64,000 nucleotides of DNA from Pseudomonadota bacterium (GTDB taxonomy: Bacteria > Pseudomonadota > Gammaproteobacteria > Xanthomonadales > Ahniellaceae), in assembly GCA_022843465.1 (NCBI GenBank), contig JALHNO010000002.1, forward strand, positions 248,001 to 312,000. Direction: 5' to 3'. Positions within the stretch are counted from its first letter, which is position 1. Every line of letters begins with the position of its first letter. The notes below the pieces were generated by a model. It was not told the origin of the DNA and searched no databases. It saw only the letters and a program-made list of their open reading frames with translations. The translations under genes were made by a program, and so were the position numbers. Shown piece after piece: positions 28,834 to 46,043 of this stretch.

Positions 28834-31800
28834 TCACTCGAAGCCATTGCCGAAGACCGAGTCCGCAGGGCCGGATGGCATCACCGAGGGCGTCAGGCAC
28901 CATTCCTGCAGCACGCCGGTGTCCGCATTGGCGACATCCGCCACGTTCAGTCGCCAGGTGCTGGCGAGGTCCAGTCCATTGAAGGCAGCCAGCGGATTGC
29001 TCGGTCGGATATTGCCGCCGATGCCGGGCGAACTTGCACGACATGCCATTGCTGTCGGCGAGGCGTCATTGAACACCGCGTCGATATTGTCGACGCCGCA
29101 ACCGCTGCCACCGAGTCGGCTGCCTATGATCACGGTGGTGTTGCTGGCGACATGAGTCAACGAAACGTTGAGGTCGCCAGGATAGGTGTGGGTCATGCGC
29201 AGGCTCAGATCGAGATCCAGAATGCTGCCACTCTGGGCGACAATCAGATTCGAGTTGACCCCTGCCGGCGTATTGTCGGGCACACCGAGATTCGGTTGGA
29301 TGCAGATGAGATTGGCTGTGGTGAAAGTGAACACTGGAGAATGCGCGCCGATACCGCAGCTGTTGCTGGCGCGTACCCGCCAGTGGTGCTCGGTGTTCGC
29401 AGCGAGTGCCGTCGGCAGGCTGGCCTGGGTCGTCGTCGTGGTCTGGCTGAACACAATATTGCTGAATCCGGCGTCGGTTGCCACTTCCACCGTGTACTCG
29501 GCTGCCTGAGCAATAGCATTCCATTGCAGCGTTGGACGCAACGCGGCATCAGTCGCAGCGTTTGCCGGTGCCACCAGGACGCCGGCGGCTGGCGCAATGT
29601 CATAGACGTTGAGACTCAAGGGCAGTGATTGTGTGCCGCTGGTCGAACTCGCTTCAACATCGAAGACAAAACTGCCCGGGGCGAGATTTCCGGTTCCAGT
29701 GAGCGTGGCGATTGCCGTGTTGCCCGGAGCTACCGAGCCGGGCAAGACTGTCGCGCTGGCCCCAGCCGGGACGTTCGCGGTGCTGAGATTTACCGTGTCG
29801 AAATAGCCCAGGACGAAGCCGACGGCGATGTTGAAACTGGCATCGTCCGGAGTGCAAATCGACTGCTGCGCAGGGCTGGGCGTGAGGGTGTAGCCAGGCG
29901 TCGTTGTGCAGTTGTCGCAGACCAACGCGAAATCCTGGTCGGTGGCATCGCCACTGCCCGAGATTCCGTCGCCCGGCAAATTGCTGGCCCTGACGGTGAG
30001 CTCAAGGTCTCCGGAAGTCCCCGCTGGGAGAAATATATTCTCTACATTGTTGAGAACATCGGCAGAACCGCCGGCAACCGATTGTCCGGCCGTCATTACA
30101 TTGCCGCGGTAGGTCGTGGCGTTGTGCACTACTTCGAGATCGAGGTTGTTGACCAGGGCAGGATTGGCACCGACAGCACCGGGTGCATCGGTCCAGGCGG
30201 TGGTGATGCGCACCGGCTTGGTCGTGTCAGGGATGCCCAAGGTGAGCTGATAGGTCTCACCCGTGTTGTCGAGCACGGCGGTCTGATCCACGAAGTGCCG
30301 TTGTCCCGAGCCGAGGATGCTGTTGGGCAGATTGACGCGACCCCAGCCCTCGTTGTTGTTCGGCACATCGGCGGTTCCGAGATCGATCGCGCCATTGACC
30401 AGTAGCGCCTTGGTCATCGCCGGGCTCTGCACGGCATTCGCGTTCATCGACTTCCACCATTGCGTAATGATCGCCGCCGCGCCCGCAGTGTGCGGCGAGG
30501 CCATGCTGGTTCCGCTGCACAGGGCATAATGATTGGAGGTGCCGCTGATGGCGGTTACACAGGACGAGCCACCGGCACGGCGACGCGTCGAGGCGATCGA
30601 TTCGCCGGGCGAAGCGACATTGGGCAGAATGCGACCGTCGACAGCCGGTCCGCGGCTGGAGAATCCTGAAATATCGGTAATGGCGCCGACGCGGAAGTTT
30701 CGCGAGGAGGCGCTTACTATGGGGTTCTTGGCCTCCTTCGGTGCGGTCAGGGTGCTGGCGCCCGGGCCGGAGTTTCCGGCTGAGAACGCGAAGATGAAGG
30801 GTTGGTTGCCGGCGGCATCGAAATCGCCGTCGCGGATCATGAAGTCGAAGGTGCGTTCGCTGGCCTGGTATCCGTGGGCGGCGCCTTCGCCGGTGGTCCA
30901 GCTGGCATTGGTTCCAATTGCATTGCCGGCCAGTCCTCGCTTGCTCAGCTCCTGCCAGCCGGGCGCTGGTGGCCAGGGCGCACCGCAATCGACCGAAGCC
31001 ATGGCATAGATGTTGGCGCCGCGGGCGACTCCGAGCCCATAGAGAAAGCCGTTCGCATCGACTTCGGAGACCGCGCCGCCCGGCCCATCGCCAATGCCCT
31101 GACCGGCGATGATGCCGGCCACGTGGGTGCCATGACCGCCGTTGCTGTTGTCGTCGCCGCCAGCCGGGCTGCTGCACCCGGGGAAGGTATAGCCGCCGGA
31201 GATGCGCGGCTGCAGATCGGGATGTCCAAGATCGACCCCGGAATCAATGACGCCCATGATGACGCCGCTGCCGTCATAGCCAAAGCCGGTCAACCAGGGG
31301 ACATAACCAACCTGGGGCTGGTTGGCGCCGTTGTAATTGCCGGCAAGAATCTGGTCTGACATCTCATCTTCGAAATAGCCGCGCGGCGACGCGTAGCCGA
31401 GCCAGACGACCTGCGGCAGATCGGCGATCGCCTGCAACTGATCGGCATCGATCTGGATCCAGGCGTCCATGAAGGTCTTGTCAGGCTGCGCCGGCGCATG
31501 GCTGAGTACGTTGGCGCCCAAGCGCTTGAGTTGGTCGATCAGCCCGCTGACATCGCCATCGTTGTAGAAGTGCACATCCACATTGCTGATTCGACCGCTG
31601 CGTCCAACCAGGTCACGGTTGAGCTTGTACTCCGACAGGAAGGCACCCTGCCAGCGAACATGAGGTCGCATCAGGGCTTCGGCGGCGGCCGCTGGATTTC
31701 CCCAGACGAGGAACGTGTCGTTGGGGTAGTACTGCAGCACCCGTAGCCCGCTCAGCTCCAGATCAGTCCGCCATGGCTGCTTGATGGGCGCGTTGAACTG

Positions 31801-32148
31801 CACCAGGTGCAGACCATTGCCAGCGGCGTCGGCGAAGAAGGCGGGCTTGCCCTTGGACACGGCATGGCGCAGCGGGTCGAAGTCGACGTGATTGAAATGG
31901 ATTCGGCCGGCATCTTCGATCAGGCTCGCTGCTGTGGATGCCTGCAGCACGCGCGCGGCGTCTTCGGCGGTGAGCTCGAGTACCTGGAAGCCTGGATATT
32001 CGGTGGCGCGCAGCGCCCGGAGCCCAAGCGCCTCGATCGCCGCGCTGTCGGAATGGTCGAGTCGAACCCGAACCGGGTCGGGATGCGCCGCGCTGGTGCC
32101 CAGCGTTCCGAGCAGTGCCGCCATGGCAATGTACAAAGGTTTACGCAT
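28834..32148 (-). CDS. Secreted subtilisin-like serine protease with FN3-like, P domain and GFE tail
   Basis: 1104-residue exported protease. Signal peptide (about 1-22, MAALLGTLGTSAAHP); a long N-terminal pro-region; S8 catalytic domain with Asp302 (VIDSGVDLGHPDL), His342 (GGHGTHVAG), oxyanion Asn459 (SAGNSGPG) and Ser548 (SGTSMASPH). C-terminal parts include a fibronectin III-like region (LQWNAIAQAAEYTVEV) and a proprotein-convertase P-like domain (DLDLSLRMTHTYPGDLNVSL). The protein ends DSVFGNGFE, a tail shared in form with the oxidase-like protein at 44249. Likely secreted or surface-attached; probably nutritional or competitive. Confidence 0.88.
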   Translation of the reverse strand: MRKPLYIAMAALLGTLGTSAAHPDPVRVRLDHSDSAAIEALGLRALRATEYPGFQVLELTAEDAARVLQASTAASLIEDAGRIHFNHVDFDPLRHAVSKGKPAFFADAAGNGLHLVQFNAPIKQPWRTDLELSGLRVLQYYPNDTFLVWGNPAAAAEALMRPHVRWQGAFLSEYKLNRDLVGRSGRISNVDVHFYNDGDVSGLIDQLKRLGANVLSHAPAQPDKTFMDAWIQIDADQLQAIADLPQVVWLGYASPRGYFEDEMSDQILAGNYNGANQPQVGYVPWLTGFGYDGSGVIMGVIDSGVDLGHPDLQPRISGGYTFPGCSSPAGGDDNSNGGHGTHVAGIIAGQGIGDGPGGAVSEVDANGFLYGLGVARGANIYAMASVDCGAPWPPAPGWQELSKRGLAGNAIGTNASWTTGEGAAHGYQASERTFDFMIRDGDFDAAGNQPFIFAFSAGNSGPGASTLTAPKEAKNPIVSASSRNFRVGAITDISGFSSRGPAVDGRILPNVASPGESIASTRRRAGGSSCVTAISGTSNHYALCSGTSMASPHTAGAAAIITQWWKSMNANAVQSPAMTKALLVNGAIDLGTADVPNNNEGWGRVNLPNSILGSGQRHFVDQTAVLDNTGETYQLTLGIPDTTKPVRITTAWTDAPGAVGANPALVNNLDLEVVHNATTYRGNVMTAGQSVAGGSADVLNNVENIFLPAGTSGDLELTVRASNLPGDGISGSGDATDQDFALVCDNCTTTPGYTLTPSPAQQSICTPDDASFNIAVGFVLGYFDTVNLSTANVPAGASATVLPGSVAPGNTAIATLTGTGNLAPGSFVFDVEASSTSGTQSLPLSLNVYDIAPAAGVLVAPANAATDAALRPTLQWNAIAQAAEYTVEVATDAGFSNIVFSQTTTTTQASLPTALAANTEHHWRVRASNSCGIGAHSPVFTFTTANLICIQPNLGVPDNTPAGVNSNLIVAQSGSILDLDLSLRMTHTYPGDLNVSLTHVASNTTVIIGSRLGGSGCGVDNIDAVFNDASPTAMACRASSPGIGGNIRPSNPLAAFNGLDLASTWRLNVADVANADTGVLQEWCLTPSVMPSGPADSVFGNGFE

Positions 32149-32503
32149 TCTTGTTCCCCGTGATGAGTTTGCAGCGGACCCGCCCCCAAAGCCGGTTGGC
32201 CGGGTGCTGCATCGCCGAAAAGTTGCCGTGCGGATCCGTCGAAGTCAGGACCGGCATCGCGCGGATGCGGTGGGCGTGTCGCTGCCAGCACGGAAGCGTG
32301 TCGTCGCGATTTCGAGAGAAGCCAGTGCCGACTATAAGCGATTCGTCGCGCCTTGCAATGCCGGGGTGGCGCCGTCGTCTTCGTTGCGCGCGAGAGCTCG
32401 TGCGGGAACAGCAGGGCGGGATCGCTCCGGCCCTGGCTCAGTTCAATGCGACGCTGTGCGCCGATGGGGCGGCTGTCGCGCACCCCATCGTGGTAATCGC
32501 AGT
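32149..32503. other. Intergenic region between acnA and the protease gene
   Basis: About 355 bases. It holds the candidate protease promoter and presumably the acnA transcript end, but no T-run hairpin is visible. No small gene with a credible ribosome site was found on either strand. Confidence 0.5.
32331..32358 (-). promoter_or_regulatory. Candidate sigma-70 promoter of the S8 protease gene
   Basis: On the minus strand TTGCAA and TATAGT are separated by 16 bases. Transcription from here would leave a leader of roughly 175 bases before the protease ATG, long enough for post-transcriptional control. Confidence 0.45.
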
Positions 32504-38903: not shown

Positions 38904-39230
38904 ATGTCAGTGAGCAAGGAACCCAGGAACCAACCGCAGCATGGCACCGTGCTGGAGGAAGCGCGGCCAGAAGTCGCCAAGCCACCCATGTACGAGGTGG
39001 CATTGATGAACGACGACTACACGCCAATGGAGTTTGTCGTCTCGGTGTTGCAAATGTTTTTCGCATTGGACCATACACGCGCGACACAGGTGATGCTCGC
39101 GGTGCACACTCGCGGCAAGGGCGTTTGCGGTGTGTTCACACGTGAAGTGGCAGAAACGAAGGTAATTCAGGTCAATGAGTTTGCACGCAGTCATCAACAC
39201 CCACTGCTCTGTGTGATGGAAAAGTTGTAG
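38904..39230 (+). CDS. clpS: ATP-dependent Clp protease adaptor ClpS
   Basis: 108-residue N-recognin that delivers N-degron substrates to ClpAP. The core [12 protein letters not shown] and [17 protein letters not shown] are the diagnostic binding-pocket segments. Followed by clpA. Functionally linked to aat further downstream, which creates Leu/Phe N-degrons recognised by ClpS. Confidence 0.97.
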
Positions 39231-39357
39231 CAGGGATCGGCACGAACGTTGCAGGTTCGTTTTGGCCCGGACCGGATGCACCAGATCGCGCATTCCGGTA
39301 CGGCTGGCAGGTCAGTGGTGGCGGCAGCCACCGGGTACATCGTTCTGGGAGTTCCGC

Positions 39358-41634
39358 ATGTTCAGCAAAGATCTCGAGCAGACATTGGCGCATTGCTACA
39401 AGGATGCACGCGAACGCCGTCACGAGTTCATGACGGTCGAACACCTGCTGCTGGCCCTCCTCGACAATCCCTCCGCCGCATCGGTTCTGCGTGCCTGTGG
39501 TGCCGACTTCAAGAAGGTCAACGCGGACCTGCGGTCGATCATCAGCGAGACCGTTCCGGTATTGCCGGCGGGTGATGGCCGCGATACCCAGCCGACCCTG
39601 GGTTTCCAGCGCGTGCTTCAGCGTGCTGTCTATCACGTGCAATCGAGCGGCCGCAGCGAAGTCACCGGCGGCAATGTCCTGGTGGCAATTTTCGGTGAGA
39701 AGGATTCGCACGCGGTGTTCTTCCTCAATCAACAGGAAATCACCCGCCTCGACGTGGTCAATTTCATCTCGCACAAGATCGCCAAGATCGGTCACGAGCC
39801 CAAGGGCAGCGATGCCGAGAACAAGGCGCAGGACGGCGAGGGCGGTGAAGAGGCGCGGGTCAACCCGCTGATCGAGTATGCGGTCAACCTCAACGAACAG
39901 GCCACGCTAGGCAAGATCGACCCCCTGATCGGCCGCGAGGACGAAGTCGAGCGGACCATCCAGGTGCTTTGCCGCCGCCGCAAAAACAACCCGCTCTATG
40001 TGGGTGAGGCCGGTGTCGGCAAGACCGCCATTGCCGAGGGTCTGGCCAAGCGCATCGTCGAAGGCCAGGTGCCCGAGGTGCTCAAGGGTGCCACCATCTA
40101 TTCGCTCGATCTGGGCGCGCTGGTCGCTGGCACCAAGTACCGCGGTGACTTCGAGAAGCGCCTCAAGGCGGTATTGGCCGAGCTGAAGAAAGAGCCGAGC
40201 GCGATTCTTTTCATCGATGAGATTCACACCATCATCGGCGCCGGCTCGGCGTCGGGCGGCACGATGGATGCCTCCAACCTGATCAAGCCGGTGCTCAGTT
40301 CCGGTGAGCTGCGCTGCATCGGTTCGACCACCTTCCAGGAGTTTCGCCAGGTGTTCGAGAAGGATCGCGCGCTGGCACGGCGTTTCCAGAAGATCGACAT
40401 TGTCGAGCCGTCGATCGCCGATACCTTCGAGATTCTGAAAGGGCTGAAGTCGCGTTTCGAAGATCATCATCAGGTCGAATACACGCCGGACGCACTGAAG
40501 GCCGCGGTAGATCTTTCGGTCAAGCACATCGGTGACCGGCTGTTGCCAGACAAGGCGATCGATGTGATTGACGAGGCCGGTGCGCGTCAGCGCCTGATGC
40601 CGGAGGCCGAGCGCAAGAAGATCGTCGACGTCACCGAGATCGAGTACATCGTCGCCAAGATGGCGCGCATCCCGCCCAAGCAGGTCTCGGTATCCGACAA
40701 GGATGTGTTGAAGAATCTTGAGCGCAATCTGAAGATGGTCGTGTTCGGCCAGGAGACTGCGATCGAGGCACTCGCTTCGTCGATCAAGATGGCGCGCTCG
40801 GGCCTGGCCAATCCGGCCAAGCCGATCGGCAGTTTCCTGTTTGCGGGTCCGACCGGTGTCGGCAAGACCGAGGTGACCCGGCAGTTGTCGCTGCAGCTCG
40901 GTATCGAGCTGATCCGCTTCGACATGAGCGAGTACATGGAGGCGCATTCGGTCTCGCGACTGATCGGCGCGCCTCCGGGTTATGTGGGCTTCGACCAGGG
41001 TGGCCTGTTGACCGAGGCGGTGACCAAGCATCCGCATGCGGTGATCCTGCTCGACGAGATCGAGAAGGCGCATCCCGACGTGTTCAATATCCTGCTCCAG
41101 GTAATGGACCGTGGTGCCCTGACCGATACCAATGGTCGCGAGGCCAGCTTCAAGAACGTGATCCTGGTGATGACGACCAATGCTGGCGCTGCCCAGGCCG
41201 CCCGCCGCACGATCGGGTTTGTGCACCAGAACCATGCGACTGATGCGATGGAGGTGCTGCGACGCAGCTTTTCGCCCGAATTCCGCAACCGGCTGGATGC
41301 GATCATCCAGTTTGGTGCCCTCGATTTCGAGCACATCCTGCGCGTGGTCGACAAGTTCCTGATCGAACTCGAAGCGCAACTGCAGGACAAGCACGTCAGC
41401 ATCTCCGCCACGCCCGAGGCGCGCCAGTGGTTGGCCGAGAATGGATTCGATCCGCAGATGGGCGCGCGCCCGATGGCGCGCATCATTCAGGAGCATGTCA
41501 AGCGACCGCTGGCGGACGAGCTGCTTTTCGGTGCCTTGTCCGAAGGCGGCGGCAAGGTGTTGCTGACCGTGCAGGATGGCAAGCTGAAGACGGTGATCGA
41601 GCGGGCCGAGTTACCCGAGCCTGTCACCAGTTGA
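39358..41634 (+). CDS. clpA: ATP-dependent Clp protease ATPase subunit ClpA
   Basis: AAA+ unfoldase that feeds ClpP, about 758 residues. N domain MFSKDLEQTL; D1 Walker A GEAGVGKT and Walker B FIDEIHT; D2 Walker A GPTGVGKT and Walker B ILLDEIEKAHPD; ClpP-docking segment IGFVHQ in the expected place. The start at 39358 follows GGGAG and matches the family N-terminus; the frame upstream is open but noncoding. Adjacent to clpS. Confidence 0.97.
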   Translation: MFSKDLEQTLAHCYKDARERRHEFMTVEHLLLALLDNPSAASVLRACGADFKKVNADLRSIISETVPVLPAGDGRDTQPTLGFQRVLQRAVYHVQSSGRSEVTGGNVLVAIFGEKDSHAVFFLNQQEITRLDVVNFISHKIAKIGHEPKGSDAENKAQDGEGGEEARVNPLIEYAVNLNEQATLGKIDPLIGREDEVERTIQVLCRRRKNNPLYVGEAGVGKTAIAEGLAKRIVEGQVPEVLKGATIYSLDLGALVAGTKYRGDFEKRLKAVLAELKKEPSAILFIDEIHTIIGAGSASGGTMDASNLIKPVLSSGELRCIGSTTFQEFRQVFEKDRALARRFQKIDIVEPSIADTFEILKGLKSRFEDHHQVEYTPDALKAAVDLSVKHIGDRLLPDKAIDVIDEAGARQRLMPEAERKKIVDVTEIEYIVAKMARIPPKQVSVSDKDVLKNLERNLKMVVFGQETAIEALASSIKMARSGLANPAKPIGSFLFAGPTGVGKTEVTRQLSLQLGIELIRFDMSEYMEAHSVSRLIGAPPGYVGFDQGGLLTEAVTKHPHAVILLDEIEKAHPDVFNILLQVMDRGALTDTNGREASFKNVILVMTTNAGAAQAARRTIGFVHQNHATDAMEVLRRSFSPEFRNRLDAIIQFGALDFEHILRVVDKFLIELEAQLQDKHVSISATPEARQWLAENGFDPQMGARPMARIIQEHVKRPLADELLFGALSEGGGKVLLTVQDGKLKTVIERAELPEPVTS

Positions 41635-41754
41635 CCCTGCTGGCCATCGCCTGGACTGATGGCCGCAGTCGTCACCCAGGAGCACGTGGCGCGCGCTCGG
41701 CGGCGAGCCGAGCGTGCTACCATTTTCTGTGGTGCGCTTCCGTGGGGTGGGCTC

Positions 41755-43632
41755 GTGGTCCCGAATTTCTTGCGTGATTTCGTCGCCGCCGCGTGCGGCC
41801 GTCTGCTCTTGTTGATGCTGCTCACTGGCGCGGCGGTGACGGTGGTGGCGGTGGATTTCACGCCGCATGGAACCCAGCCCGGGCTGTTCTACGCGCTGGA
41901 CGAGCCGCAGGCCTGCCTGGGCTGCCATGGCAACAAGACGCTGCCGGACACCCGCTTCCTTCCGCATTCGACCTGGTCCGGGTCGATGATGTCGAATGCC
42001 ACGCGCGACCCGATCTTCTGGGCGGCACTGGATGTCGCCAATCGCGATGTGCCGGGCGTCGGCGACTGGTGCCTGCGTTGCCATACGCCCATGGGTTGGC
42101 TGGGAGGTCGTGTCAGCAAGACCGGAGCCGCGCCTCCGGGCAACGTGGTCGACGGCACCAATGGCTGTCTGCTGCAGGGCAGCTTCACCGACAACGATGC
42201 GCCCAATGACGATTATGCGGGCGTAACCTGCCATCACTGCCATCGCATGAAACCGCTGGGACCGAACGCTGAAACCGCGCCGCACGGCAGCGGAAATTAC
42301 TGGCTCGATGACGCCGCCAGCTGCGGTTTCGGTCCCTGCCGGTTTGGACCCTACAATTACCCGCAGAACAGTCCGCTGGAACCGCCGCATGGCTGGAAGT
42401 ATTCCGCGTTCACGGTCTCTGGCGATCACTGCGGCACCTGTCACGATGTGTCGTCGCCGATCACTGATGCCGGTGAGGCGCTGCGCACCCTCATCGTTCC
42501 CAATGCCACACTGGCAGGGCGCGATACCGACCTGCCATTCCCCGCCGAGCGCACGTACTCGGAGTGGCGTCAGAGCGAGTACGGCAACGAACTGCTGGTT
42601 GACTCGTTTGAGGCCGAGGGCGTCAAGTCGCCACGCAGCGTGCAGATCACCAGTTGTCAGAACTGCCATATGCGCAACAGCAGCGATCCTGCCGCGCGCG
42701 CCTGCATCGGCAACGAGCCCGGTACCCGTACCGGCAATCTGCCCGTGCACGAGTTTGTCGGCGGCGGTGCCTGGCCGCTGCGTCTGATCAACGGACTCTA
42801 CGGTGCCGTGCTCGGGCCAGAGCGGATGGCCGCGATGGCGCAGACCATCGCCTGGTCGGAAGAATTGCTGTCGATGCGCAGTGCGCAGATGGAGGTATCC
42901 CTGGCACCCTGGACGCTTGGCTCCGGAGATCTGCAGGCCAGTGTGCGGATCACCAATCTTGCCGGCCACAAACTGCCTACGGGCTATTCGGAAGGGCGCC
43001 GGATGTGGATTCTGCTGGAGGCCAATGATGCCAATGGTGCGCCGGTTTTCAGCAGCGGTGACTGGGACGACGGCACCGGCGATCTCGCCAGCGATCCGCA
43101 GCTGAAGGTTTACGAAACGGTGCAGGGCAGTTGGGACGCCAGCACCGGGACCTGCCGCACGACCGACGCCATGGGGCGCAAGGAATTCCATTTTGTGCTG
43201 AACAACTGTGTGGCCAAGGACAATCGGATTCCGCCGCTCGGATTCACGCCGAGGCATGGCGCCGACCCCGAGGGTCTCGAGATGCGGCCGGTTGCCTACA
43301 GCTACGCCGAGACCAGTCCCGGTTCCGGTCGCCTGGTCAATTTTGATGTCACCACCTATGCCATCCCGGTTCCGCCGGGCACGCCGCTGCCGGTGACCGT
43401 GCGTGCGACCTTGCAGTATCAGACTTCAAGCAAGGAATACATCACATTCCTGCGCAATCAGGCGCAGGAAAATGCCCAGCAGACCGAGAACCAGATGTGC
43501 AATCGCAGCTGGGTCGAAGGTCCCGCCGACAAGAGTCGCGGACAATTTCTCTATGACCTCTGGAGTGATCCCGCTTACGGGCGCTCGCCACCGTTGACGG
43601 TAGCGATCGATTCGGCAAGCACCGGCCCATGA
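41755..43632 (+). CDS. Exported pentahaem c-type cytochrome
   Basis: About 625 residues. The hydrophobic N-terminus (LLLLMLLTGAAVTVVA) is a signal peptide or anchor. Five CxxCH haem motifs: CLGCH (Cys54), CLRCH (106), CHHCH (159), CGTCH (226), CQNCH (301). The C-terminal half contains LAGHKLPTGYSEGRRMW, a segment found in multihaem cytochromes of the periplasm. GTG 41755 is chosen for a normal signal peptide; the frame is open upstream to 41659. Its stop overlaps the next gene by 4 bases. Likely an electron-transfer partner for the two following proteins; donor and acceptor are unknown. Confidence 0.8.
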   Translation: MVPNFLRDFVAAACGRLLLLMLLTGAAVTVVAVDFTPHGTQPGLFYALDEPQACLGCHGNKTLPDTRFLPHSTWSGSMMSNATRDPIFWAALDVANRDVPGVGDWCLRCHTPMGWLGGRVSKTGAAPPGNVVDGTNGCLLQGSFTDNDAPNDDYAGVTCHHCHRMKPLGPNAETAPHGSGNYWLDDAASCGFGPCRFGPYNYPQNSPLEPPHGWKYSAFTVSGDHCGTCHDVSSPITDAGEALRTLIVPNATLAGRDTDLPFPAERTYSEWRQSEYGNELLVDSFEAEGVKSPRSVQITSCQNCHMRNSSDPAARACIGNEPGTRTGNLPVHEFVGGGAWPLRLINGLYGAVLGPERMAAMAQTIAWSEELLSMRSAQMEVSLAPWTLGSGDLQASVRITNLAGHKLPTGYSEGRRMWILLEANDANGAPVFSSGDWDDGTGDLASDPQLKVYETVQGSWDASTGTCRTTDAMGRKEFHFVLNNCVAKDNRIPPLGFTPRHGADPEGLEMRPVAYSYAETSPGSGRLVNFDVTTYAIPVPPGTPLPVTVRATLQYQTSSKEYITFLRNQAQENAQQTENQMCNRSWVEGPADKSRGQFLYDLWSDPAYGRSPPLTVAIDSASTGP

Positions 43633-44252
43633 GAGCACGCGCATCCTGGCTGGACATCCGATGGTTCGCGGCCGTCCTCGGCAGCTGCGGGCTGTTTGCC
43701 TGTGCCCAACAGCCCGTGCGTCATGGCGCTCAGCCGGGTGTGCTCGCGGTGATCGACGATATTGCCGATGCCGAGGGCAACCGGATCCTGATCATTCGCG
43801 ATTACGTCGATGAGCTGAAAATCGATGGCCGGGATGTGCGCCAGCGTTTCCAGTACGTCTGGAACTATACCCGCGGCATCGCGCAGATGCGGGTACTGGA
43901 TGTCGATGGCGGTTTGCTGCGCACGCTGGACCAGCCGCGGCTGACCTTGAATGTCACCGAAGCGGAGCGCGAATACGCCTTCGATCGGGTGCGCGCGGAT
44001 CCGCGTTGGACCGCAATGCATCGTGTGGATTCGATGTTCTACGGCGGCTTCAGTTTTCGGCCACCACAGCATGCGGTCTGCAGCGAGCGTGCCCGCTGCA
44101 TCCACGTTTTCGCCTCCGACAGCGGCGGCCGCAATACCACCCTGCATGTGATCTACGACCTGATGTCTGACTATTCCGAACTTGCAGCGGAGCGTGCTGA
44201 TTCTGTTGCCCTCGACCCGCCTCATCCATCCCTGGAGTCCTCGCCGCGATGA
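43629..44252 (+). CDS. Predicted lipoprotein of unknown function
   Basis: 207 residues. Lipobox LFAC with modifiable Cys25 after a short hydrophobic stretch (WFAAVLGSCG). No known domain recognised; the mature part is rich in charged residues, contains a Cys pair near the end (CSERARC) and a YYF-like aromatic region (MFYGGFSF). Coupled by 4-base overlaps to the cytochrome gene upstream and the oxidase-like gene downstream, so it probably works with both in the envelope. Confidence 0.6.
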   Translation: MRARASWLDIRWFAAVLGSCGLFACAQQPVRHGAQPGVLAVIDDIADAEGNRILIIRDYVDELKIDGRDVRQRFQYVWNYTRGIAQMRVLDVDGGLLRTLDQPRLTLNVTEAEREYAFDRVRADPRWTAMHRVDSMFYGGFSFRPPQHAVCSERARCIHVFASDSGGRNTTLHVIYDLMSDYSELAAERADSVALDPPHPSLESSPR

Positions 44253-45403
44253 AGATAGCGAACTGCTCGAAACTGCTGTGTTTGCTGGTGCTCCTCGGGA
44301 CCACTCCGGCCTACGCCGCCTCACCGACCTGCACCCTGCCCGAGCGCCTGCTGTCCTGGCCGGCCGAGAATCCGATCTGGGAGCTCTGCTACCTCTCGGC
44401 CGATGACAGTGTCGGTCCGCGTGGTTCCGGGCTTGAGCTGCGCAATGTCCATCTCAACGGAAGGCTTGCCATCAAGAAGGCGCATTCGCCAATGCTGTTC
44501 GCCGAATACACCACCAGTACCTGTTATCGCGACTGGATGGATGACGCCAATGGTTTTCTGGCGATGCCCCAAGTACGCAACCAGCTCGGGCAATCGACAA
44601 CGTTCAATGCGACCACCAGCTGCGATCGGTCGAATGATCCGGTGCAGCCCTATTTCCAGTGCCCATTCCAGTTGCCGGGTCGGGTTGCGGCCGACTGCTT
44701 CACCGGTGTGGCGGTGGAAGACCGAGGTGATCACGTGGTGCTGACCACGCAGTACGCGGCCTCCTGGTACTACTACAGCTCGCGGTTCTACTTCTATGCC
44801 GATGGCTCGTTCGAGCCGGAGTTCGGTTTTGGCAACCGCGATGGGACCAATAATTCGATCACCCACTGGCACCACAATTACTGGCGTCTGGATTTCGACA
44901 TCGACGATGCCGGCAACGATGTGGTGGCGCAGAATGGCGTGGTCCAGGCCACCGAGTTTCAGACCTTGCGCTGCAATCCCAGCACGGCCACGCCCTGCGC
45001 GATCGAGCGCGTCTGGTCGGTGACCGACACCGTCAGTGGCCGCGGGTTTCAATTGCTGCCGGCCGCCGAGGACTACGTGTCGCCGACCAACCAGTCCGGT
45101 CGCAACTTCCACCTGACCGATGTGATGGCAACCACCCATATCGCCAACGAATACAGCGATACGCCGAGCACGGTGACCTTGAGCGACTGCGGCATGGATG
45201 AGGAGAACCTCGTCAATGGCGGCGATCTCGATGGGCCGACGGGCAGTGGCACCGATGTCGTGTTGTATTACCGCGTCGGCGTGCGTGATCGCAATGCCAG
45301 TCCGGGGCCGCAGGACTCGATGATCTGCAAGCGGGCCGGACCGGTGTTCACGCCGATCGGCAACTGGGGCGCACCGCCGCTGTTCGAGAATGGCTTCGAG
45401 TAA
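44249..45403 (+). CDS. Exported copper amine oxidase-like protein with altered active site
   Basis: 384 residues with a signal peptide (about 1-23, CLLVLLGTTPAYA). The body aligns by eye with the catalytic domain of copper amine oxidases: GLELRNVHLNGRL; then W173-YYY followed by FYADG, matching the N-Y-D-Y ... LYLDG cofactor region; then H206-W-H208 followed by RLDFDID, matching the HxH copper ligands; then DVVLYYRVGV near the C-terminus. The cofactor-motif Asn and Asp are Trp and Tyr, and the third copper ligand His is Asp347. The amine-oxidase N-terminal domains are absent. Ends PLFENGFE. Activity is uncertain. Confidence 0.6.
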   Translation: MKIANCSKLLCLLVLLGTTPAYAASPTCTLPERLLSWPAENPIWELCYLSADDSVGPRGSGLELRNVHLNGRLAIKKAHSPMLFAEYTTSTCYRDWMDDANGFLAMPQVRNQLGQSTTFNATTSCDRSNDPVQPYFQCPFQLPGRVAADCFTGVAVEDRGDHVVLTTQYAASWYYYSSRFYFYADGSFEPEFGFGNRDGTNNSITHWHHNYWRLDFDIDDAGNDVVAQNGVVQATEFQTLRCNPSTATPCAIERVWSVTDTVSGRGFQLLPAAEDYVSPTNQSGRNFHLTDVMATTHIANEYSDTPSTVTLSDCGMDEENLVNGGDLDGPTGSGTDVVLYYRVGVRDRNASPGPQDSMICKRAGPVFTPIGNWGAPPLFENGFE

Positions 45404-45525: not shown

Positions 45526-45744
45526 CTATTTCATCCGGTAGCTGATCCGGCCCTTGGTCAGGTCGTAGGGCGTCATCTCGACCTTGACCTTGTCGCCGGT
45601 GAGGATGCGGATGTAGTTCTTGCGCATGCGTCCGGAAATGTGTGCGGTGACCACATGGCCATTTTCCAACTGCACGCGGAATACCGTATTCGGGAGGGTT
45701 TCCAGAACGGTACCTTCCATTTCAATCTGATCGTCTTTTGACAT
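45526..45744 (-). CDS. infA: Translation initiation factor IF-1
   Basis: 72-residue OB-fold factor: [20 protein letters not shown] and [14 protein letters not shown] are diagnostic. Lies downstream of aat on the same strand with about 300 bases (45745-46043) between; that gap holds an open continuation of the frame but no credible gene. Close to clpA in many gammaproteobacteria; here the 41755-45403 operon lies between. Confidence 0.97.
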
Positions 45745-46043
45745 TCGATGCTTCTGTTGGGATTCGACGGGGTCCGGATGGACCAGCGAGGCGCGCGATT
45801 CTGCCACGGTAAGGCTGAGCGTGAAAGTCAGGCCGCGGTTTCGACGGGAGCTGGTCGAGGCCGGGCGGGGCGCTGGCGGCCTGGATGAACGTCCGCGTCC
45901 GAACAGTGTAGCGGGTTCCGCGATCCGACACCGGACATCGCCAGGACACCGGGCACCGGTTGCCAGAACACGGCACCAGGGCGCGCAGGGCCTGGCGCGC
46001 GGGGCGCAGGCACTACAAGCGCGGCGGGCCGGCCGCGGGGCAA

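Follow-up and report, generated by a model that had tools for sequence, protein, structure and literature searches.

Positions 41755-45403 of the window, a stretch of 64,000 nucleotides from an Ahniellaceae genome (contig JALHNO010000002.1, positions 248,001 to 312,000), encode three exported proteins, which we read, with a probability of about 0.85, as a copper amine oxidase (CuAO)-type protein split into an anchored D2-D3 lipoprotein and an exported D4 protein, together with a pentahaem cytochrome c. Judged from structural models and profile comparisons, the enzyme appears to have been cut between D3 and D4 and its first piece given a lipid anchor. A preliminary description of this DNA had reported three genes for envelope proteins, each sharing 4 bases with the next, and both its coordinates and the two ATGA overlaps are right. 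The three genes, hereafter the module, are laid out as follows (aa, amino acids).

41755..43632, + strand: pentahaem cytochrome c gene; 625 aa, GTG start, exported, five CXXCH motifs
43629..43632, + strand: ATGA overlap of cytochrome stop and lipoprotein start, 4 bases
43629..44252, + strand: lipoprotein gene; 207 aa, lipobox-like LFAC at Cys25
44249..44252, + strand: ATGA overlap of lipoprotein stop and CuAO-like start, 4 bases
44249..45403, + strand: CuAO D4-like exported protein gene; 384 aa, signal-like N-terminus by eye, C-terminus LFENGFE

An alternative upstream in-frame ATG for the cytochrome lies at 41659. By prediction and comparison, the cytochrome gene would be translationally coupled to the lipoprotein and D4 genes.

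The third protein and the CuAO catalytic domain

CuAOs of known structure are homodimers in which one chain runs from D2 to D4, holds copper by three His and passes electrons to O2 (PMC3382800). The preliminary description had named the third protein a relative of these enzymes. Taken alone, the window protein carries that label weakly, scoring 14.5 bits against Pfam PF01179 and so not reaching the gathering cut-off of 27, but family and structure bear it out. PF01179 matches at E≤1 in 19 of 34 family members (best 5.9e-7). These 34 are the rows of alignment A1, from which L046 and L048-L055 were left out and in which the C-terminus is cut at the match end in 18 rows; in L046 (8001-9201) the CuAO-like gene is split over two frames, by a frame shift or an assembly error. 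With the AlphaFold2 model of the window protein (predicted local distance difference test, pLDDT, 85.6), all 50 Foldseek matches listed from the PDB are CuAOs, the best at E 2.3e-13, and superposition by VIA reaches Z 25.7 over 286 residues (5.5 Å) and Z 25.5 over 281 (3.1 Å). The model has the D4 beta-sandwich catalytic fold.

PF01179 matches in 12 of 249 genomes of the phylum, and ten of these 12 supplied the alignment of canonical CuAOs (A3; L071 and the fragment L075 were left out). Against these ten, the family profile gives E 3.5e-7 over 281 D4 columns, with a score of 59.8; the maximum in shuffles is 23.3, and 0/30 are as good. On model and profile together, the identification of the third protein as the CuAO catalytic domain D4 is well supported. 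A scan of 61 genomes, the window's own and 60 relatives, with PF01179 returned nothing at E≤1e-3, and this model therefore misses the CuAO-like family in genome scans. Searches of the PDB with single sequences, and with the profiles of the CuAO-like protein (A1), the lipoprotein (A2), the cytochrome (A4) and a family X treated below (A5), gave no match under E 0.03; the best PDB rows for A1 and A5 are antibody chains, matched by chance.

The lipoprotein as a probable counterpart of D2-D3

The preliminary description had seen in the second gene a lipoprotein without known domain. This has to be corrected: the lipobox Cys is there (LFAC in the window; Cys in 31/35 rows, a gap in 3 and Val in 1), and the protein resembles CuAO D2-D3. 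Its model (pLDDT 82.5) is built alpha-beta4-alpha-beta4, that is, of two alpha-beta4 units. The best 19 VIA rows are all CuAO, with Z 7.5-6.7 over 142-158 residues, corresponding to about 27-201 of the Arthrobacter enzyme AGAO; the top superposition covers 147 residues at 3.8 Å, and the best non-CuAO row scores 6.6 over 55 residues. The lipoprotein profile (A2, without L048-L055) matches the whole CuAO profile at D3 with E 8.4e-5, and the D2-D3 part with E 1.2e-5 and a score of 41.6, 0/60 shuffles rising above 23.3; neither the D4 nor the cytochrome profile is matched by it, nor are reversed profiles. D2 and D3 have about 100 residues each and are thought to be of one origin (PMC3382800), which fits the lipoprotein's length of 207. 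The succession D2-D3-D4 is thus not found in one chain here; the D2-D3-like fold is encoded by a separate gene.

An altered active site

CuAOs share the consensus T-x-x-N-Y-D/E, with the Tyr as topaquinone precursor, and three strictly conserved His as copper ligands (PMC3382800). In 34/34 rows of A1 the precursor Tyr (Y174) and the HxH pair (H206, H208) are kept, Trp (W173) takes the place of the consensus Asn, and Asp (D347) stands at the third copper His place, which holds His in 10/10 canonical CuAOs and also in L057, L058 and L059. Y176 and D95 are likewise invariant (34/34). The family thus has the Tyr without the full topaquinone consensus, and HxH without the third His. Alignment with L057 by hhalign leaves a one-residue gap at the third-His place, so that the Asp would lie at or beside it; His is absent either way. 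As catalytic base, D95 and D98 are both candidates. Eight Cys are invariant in the family, which suggests a disulphide-stabilised shell. Because all 34 rows lack both the Asn of the topaquinone consensus and the third His of the copper site, the name 'amine oxidase' is no guide to what the protein does.

Compared with the copper amine oxidases (Arthrobacter AGAO, E. coli ECAO), the locus shares the D4 fold, the position of the precursor Tyr and the HxH ligands, and has the D2-D3 fold in its partner lipoprotein. It differs in having two genes for one chain, Asp for the third His, Trp for the Asn before the Tyr, a partner cytochrome and a shorter D4 protein (384 aa including the signal).

One-chain and other relatives

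A one-chain homologue, P0001 (555 aa; loci L057 and L127, from a genome of the same class), matches the D4 family profile at E 9e-34 and has about 240 residues ahead of D4. It shares the WYxY motif and HxH with the family. It differs in this extra N-terminal region, in keeping the third His, and in its surroundings: the 8.6 kb contig of L057 has no match to the cytochrome profile. Among 75 genomes near G232, a search for one-chain proteins picked out G232 only; apart from that there were marginal matches in G062 and G126, and G133 had six weak places resembling CuAO (best 1.2e-9). L058 and L059 are neighbouring CuAO-like gene pairs in the same class, and the aligned member of each has the third His.

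Recurrence of the gene set

We collected 37 loci by the third gene alone: 28 named genome contigs, 8 further relatives and the window (counted without L001-L019, which repeat other loci). The named loci carry titles such as Lysobacterales, Xanthomonadales, Dokdonella, Tahibacter, Pseudofulvimonas, Marinicella and the like, or just Proteobacteria; related genomes are not independent draws. The preliminary description had proposed checking whether the three-gene order recurs, and it does: the lipoprotein lies directly 5' of the CuAO-like gene in 36/37 loci, with the cytochrome ahead of it in 33 of those 36. The arrangement is not due to chance, because the order recurs over the 37 loci. Those in which the pair has no cytochrome ahead are L027 and L039, both starting near a contig end, and L036, which has no CXXCH on the plus strand within 2.7 kb upstream. 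The sole locus in which the lipoprotein does not adjoin is L055 (6978-9141), where the cytochrome is intact but the CuAO-like gene is reduced to a remnant of some 90 C-terminal residues, and a lipoprotein match was not found. Six loci have the lipoprotein and CuAO-like genes in tandem. Across loci, the CuAO-like proteins and the full cytochromes are about 40-65% identical, and the lipoproteins 21-44%. Of 39 lipoprotein genes, a set that includes the window, tandem second copies and contig-edge copies, 11 overlap the cytochrome gene by 4 bases and 10 the CuAO-like gene, with starts chosen by script.

In the 61 genomes the CuAO-like gene is present in 18 and a close cytochrome (E<1e-200) in 22: both occur in 17 (G032 having a CuAO-like remnant only), the CuAO-like gene only in 1, the cytochrome only in 5 and neither in 38. 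Sampling the order more widely, we found the CuAO-like gene in 28 of 151 genomes and 13 of 64 genera, one of the 28 being a remnant. When the class was sampled thinly (369 genomes), full-length CuAO-like matches were confined to G000, the window's genome, and G020, both of the same order.

The pentahaem cytochrome

The five-haem cytochrome c of the preliminary description holds good: the window protein has haem sites at C54-H58, C106-H110, C159-H163, C226-H230 and C301-H305. The CXXCH motifs and His 212, 332, 405 and 479 are conserved in at least 95% of 42 rows (42 of 44 sequences, two fragments being dropped). With four further conserved His, at least one haem is without a conserved distal His. 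A proposed pentahaem family comprises ExtKL, Gsu2801 and the structurally similar c552 of Thermochromatium (PMC11976967). On profile comparison our cytochrome is probably kin to these ExtKL/c552 proteins. The ExtKL model NF040886 matches 17 of 24 members at E≤0.01 (best 1e-8), though not the window cytochrome itself at 0.01; the cytochrome profile (24 rows) finds cytochrome c552 (5ze8) in the PDB at E 0.03 and 9wt8 at E 0.22, and its GHKLPTG stretch aligns with PHAMPTG of 5ze8. The partner genes of the two groups differ.

On the cytochrome tree, from which G009 (at a contig end) was left out, the label 'next to the lipoprotein/CuAO-like pair' needs 7 changes, against a shuffled mean of 11.3; 1/500 shuffles is as low. 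We considered whether the cytochromes that lack the pair in G001, G002 and G004 are the same gene with changed partners, and rejected this: they form a clade of their own with the second copy of L020 (99/100), and therefore look like paralogues. The cytochromes of G041 and of the L055 remnant fall within module-cytochrome groups and look like cases in which the pair was lost. A second, distant five-CXXCH cytochrome family (E ~1e-80) occurs in L120-L123, with a GFE/SFE-type C-terminal tail in three of the four.

Family X, a C-terminal tail and neighbouring genes

Family X consists of exported proteins of about 600-710 aa with the core NDQHP-LIWNLYR ... KHAFLTTN ... WGRCGSI. It lies on the same strand in 23/37 module loci, mostly adjoining the module, with none at the window locus. 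Examples are found in L020-L049, L117 and L118 (such as L118:5668-7677); in L117 and L118 it stands beside paralogous cytochromes, the L118 copy lying, by eye, between open reading frames (ORFs) resembling clpS/clpA and aat. At E≤1e-15 it is present in 39 of the 61 genomes. Against Pfam and the PDB the family (profile of 20 rows) has chance-level matches only, and the NCBIfam scan covered two members. The window's genome has two family X matches, and the 16 kb around the stronger, G000:C4:227891-229729, contain no module gene.

The CuAO-like protein ends in a tail F-x-[D/N]-G-F-E-stop (45383-45403). This pattern has 35 matches in G000, compared with 0 for a reversed control, and in the 30 of these places that were taken as loci it ends an ORF of at least 123 codons. 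It is possibly an undescribed sorting or anchoring tag; our literature search found no description of it. The same tail is carried by a protein of 1136 aa elsewhere in the window (28834-32244, - strand), which matches S8-type serine peptidase families at scores below their cut-offs (mycosin, 48 bits; cut-off 279).

The neighbours, all outside the module, are as follows.

38904-39230, + strand: clpS-like ORF, upstream
39262..41634, + strand: clpA-like ORF, longest frame; Clp_N, AAA_2 and ClpB_D2-small domains, upstream
45526..45750, - strand: infA (PF01176), convergent, downstream

The two upstream ORFs are presumably clpS and clpA. Also among the convergent downstream genes is aat.

Interpretation

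Our interpretation is that the lipoprotein would tether D4 within the envelope through the D2-D3/D4 contacts that one-chain CuAOs have. A putative metal would be held by H206, H208 and D347 beside the precursor tyrosine Y174, with a tyrosine-based chemistry, and D4 would take electrons from an amine or another small reduced compound. Since the three-His copper site that reduces O2 is not what is seen here, the electrons would in this proposal leave through the pentahaem cytochrome without formation of H2O2, making the protein a dehydrogenase instead of an oxidase. Quinohaemoprotein and methylamine dehydrogenases would then work in a like mode, from amine to a cytochrome or other carrier without H2O2, with different folds and cofactors. 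To this reading, of a dehydrogenase held at the membrane with the cytochrome as its electron acceptor, we give slightly less than even odds. Its most specific form, in which a CuAO-fold enzyme is no longer an oxidase, uses D2-D3 as a lipid anchor and a 2-His-1-Asp site around a quinone or radical tyrosine, and feeds a dedicated pentahaem cytochrome, often with family X in relatives, is tentative and more doubtful than that.

Several results weigh against this interpretation or parts of it. The family profile finds CuAO among PDB sequences at E ~0.8, ranked under chance antibody matches. For the lipoprotein, two E. coli CuAO chains top the Foldseek list at an E value of only ~0.1, with 0/1034 matches at 0.001; its VIA Z is below 8, a level flagged as possibly a common arrangement and insufficient alone; and the D2 half is suggested only by structure and by its position before D3. 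The N-terminal region of P0001 matches the lipoprotein profile at E 0.06 only. As to the cytochrome, its close form occurs without the pair in 5 of 22 genomes, G007 has the lipoprotein/CuAO-like pair and a cytochrome was not found there, and the module cytochromes do not form one clade. The proposed catalytic base depends on the aligner, being D95 by hhalign and D98, three columns off, by MAFFT, and with the topaquinone consensus broken from Asn to Trp a quinone may be absent.

The loss of the third copper ligand and of the topaquinone Asn in every row, and the eight invariant Cys with the shell they suggest, would also suit a pseudoenzyme, in which D2-D3 and D4 form a receptor or a metal-binding scaffold of CuAO fold but without catalysis, which at the membrane would dock the cytochrome or aid its maturation. 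We consider this unlikely, if a serious candidate: HxH, Y174, Y176, D95 and D347 are invariant, a degree of conservation that a mere scaffold hardly seems to require. Slightly less likely still, in our view, is a repurposed 2-His-1-Asp site (with Tyr) binding iron, manganese or copper, whether as a quinone-free oxygenase or a metal-ion oxidoreductase with the cytochrome as donor or acceptor. The invariant HxH and Asp agree with it, as does the kinship of the cytochrome with ExtKL-type proteins, but the precursor tyrosine is invariant too, as expected for a tyrosine-derived cofactor. Very improbable is an ordinary H2O2-making topaquinone amine oxidase beside a functionally unrelated cytochrome. 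The tyrosine and HxH are kept, and Arthrobacter N381A structures are titled as holo form and catalytic intermediate, so that the Asn may not be absolutely needed; yet the third His is replaced in every row, and 17 of the 18 genomes that carry the gene have the cytochrome as well.

The preliminary description had proposed a periplasmic oxidation module in which the cytochrome could take electrons from the oxidase-like protein or its product, and this is partly borne out. Neither of the two outcomes that it gave as refuting occurred, since the gene order recurs and the third protein has the D4 fold. The lipoprotein, however, is no unrelated third part and looks like D2-D3 of the same enzyme, and electron transfer to the cytochrome is still an inference, as that description had said. 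Among the titles and abstract beginnings listed by our literature searches, none describes such a gene set, and a search for copper amine oxidase with pentaheme found none. A natural split CuAO in which the third ligand is changed and a cytochrome is the partner would make it possible to ask what the third His and D2-D3 do, and also whether the CuAO fold can work as a dehydrogenase. For a gene set that has hardly any label in Pfam and NCBIfam, it would provide a role open to experiment.

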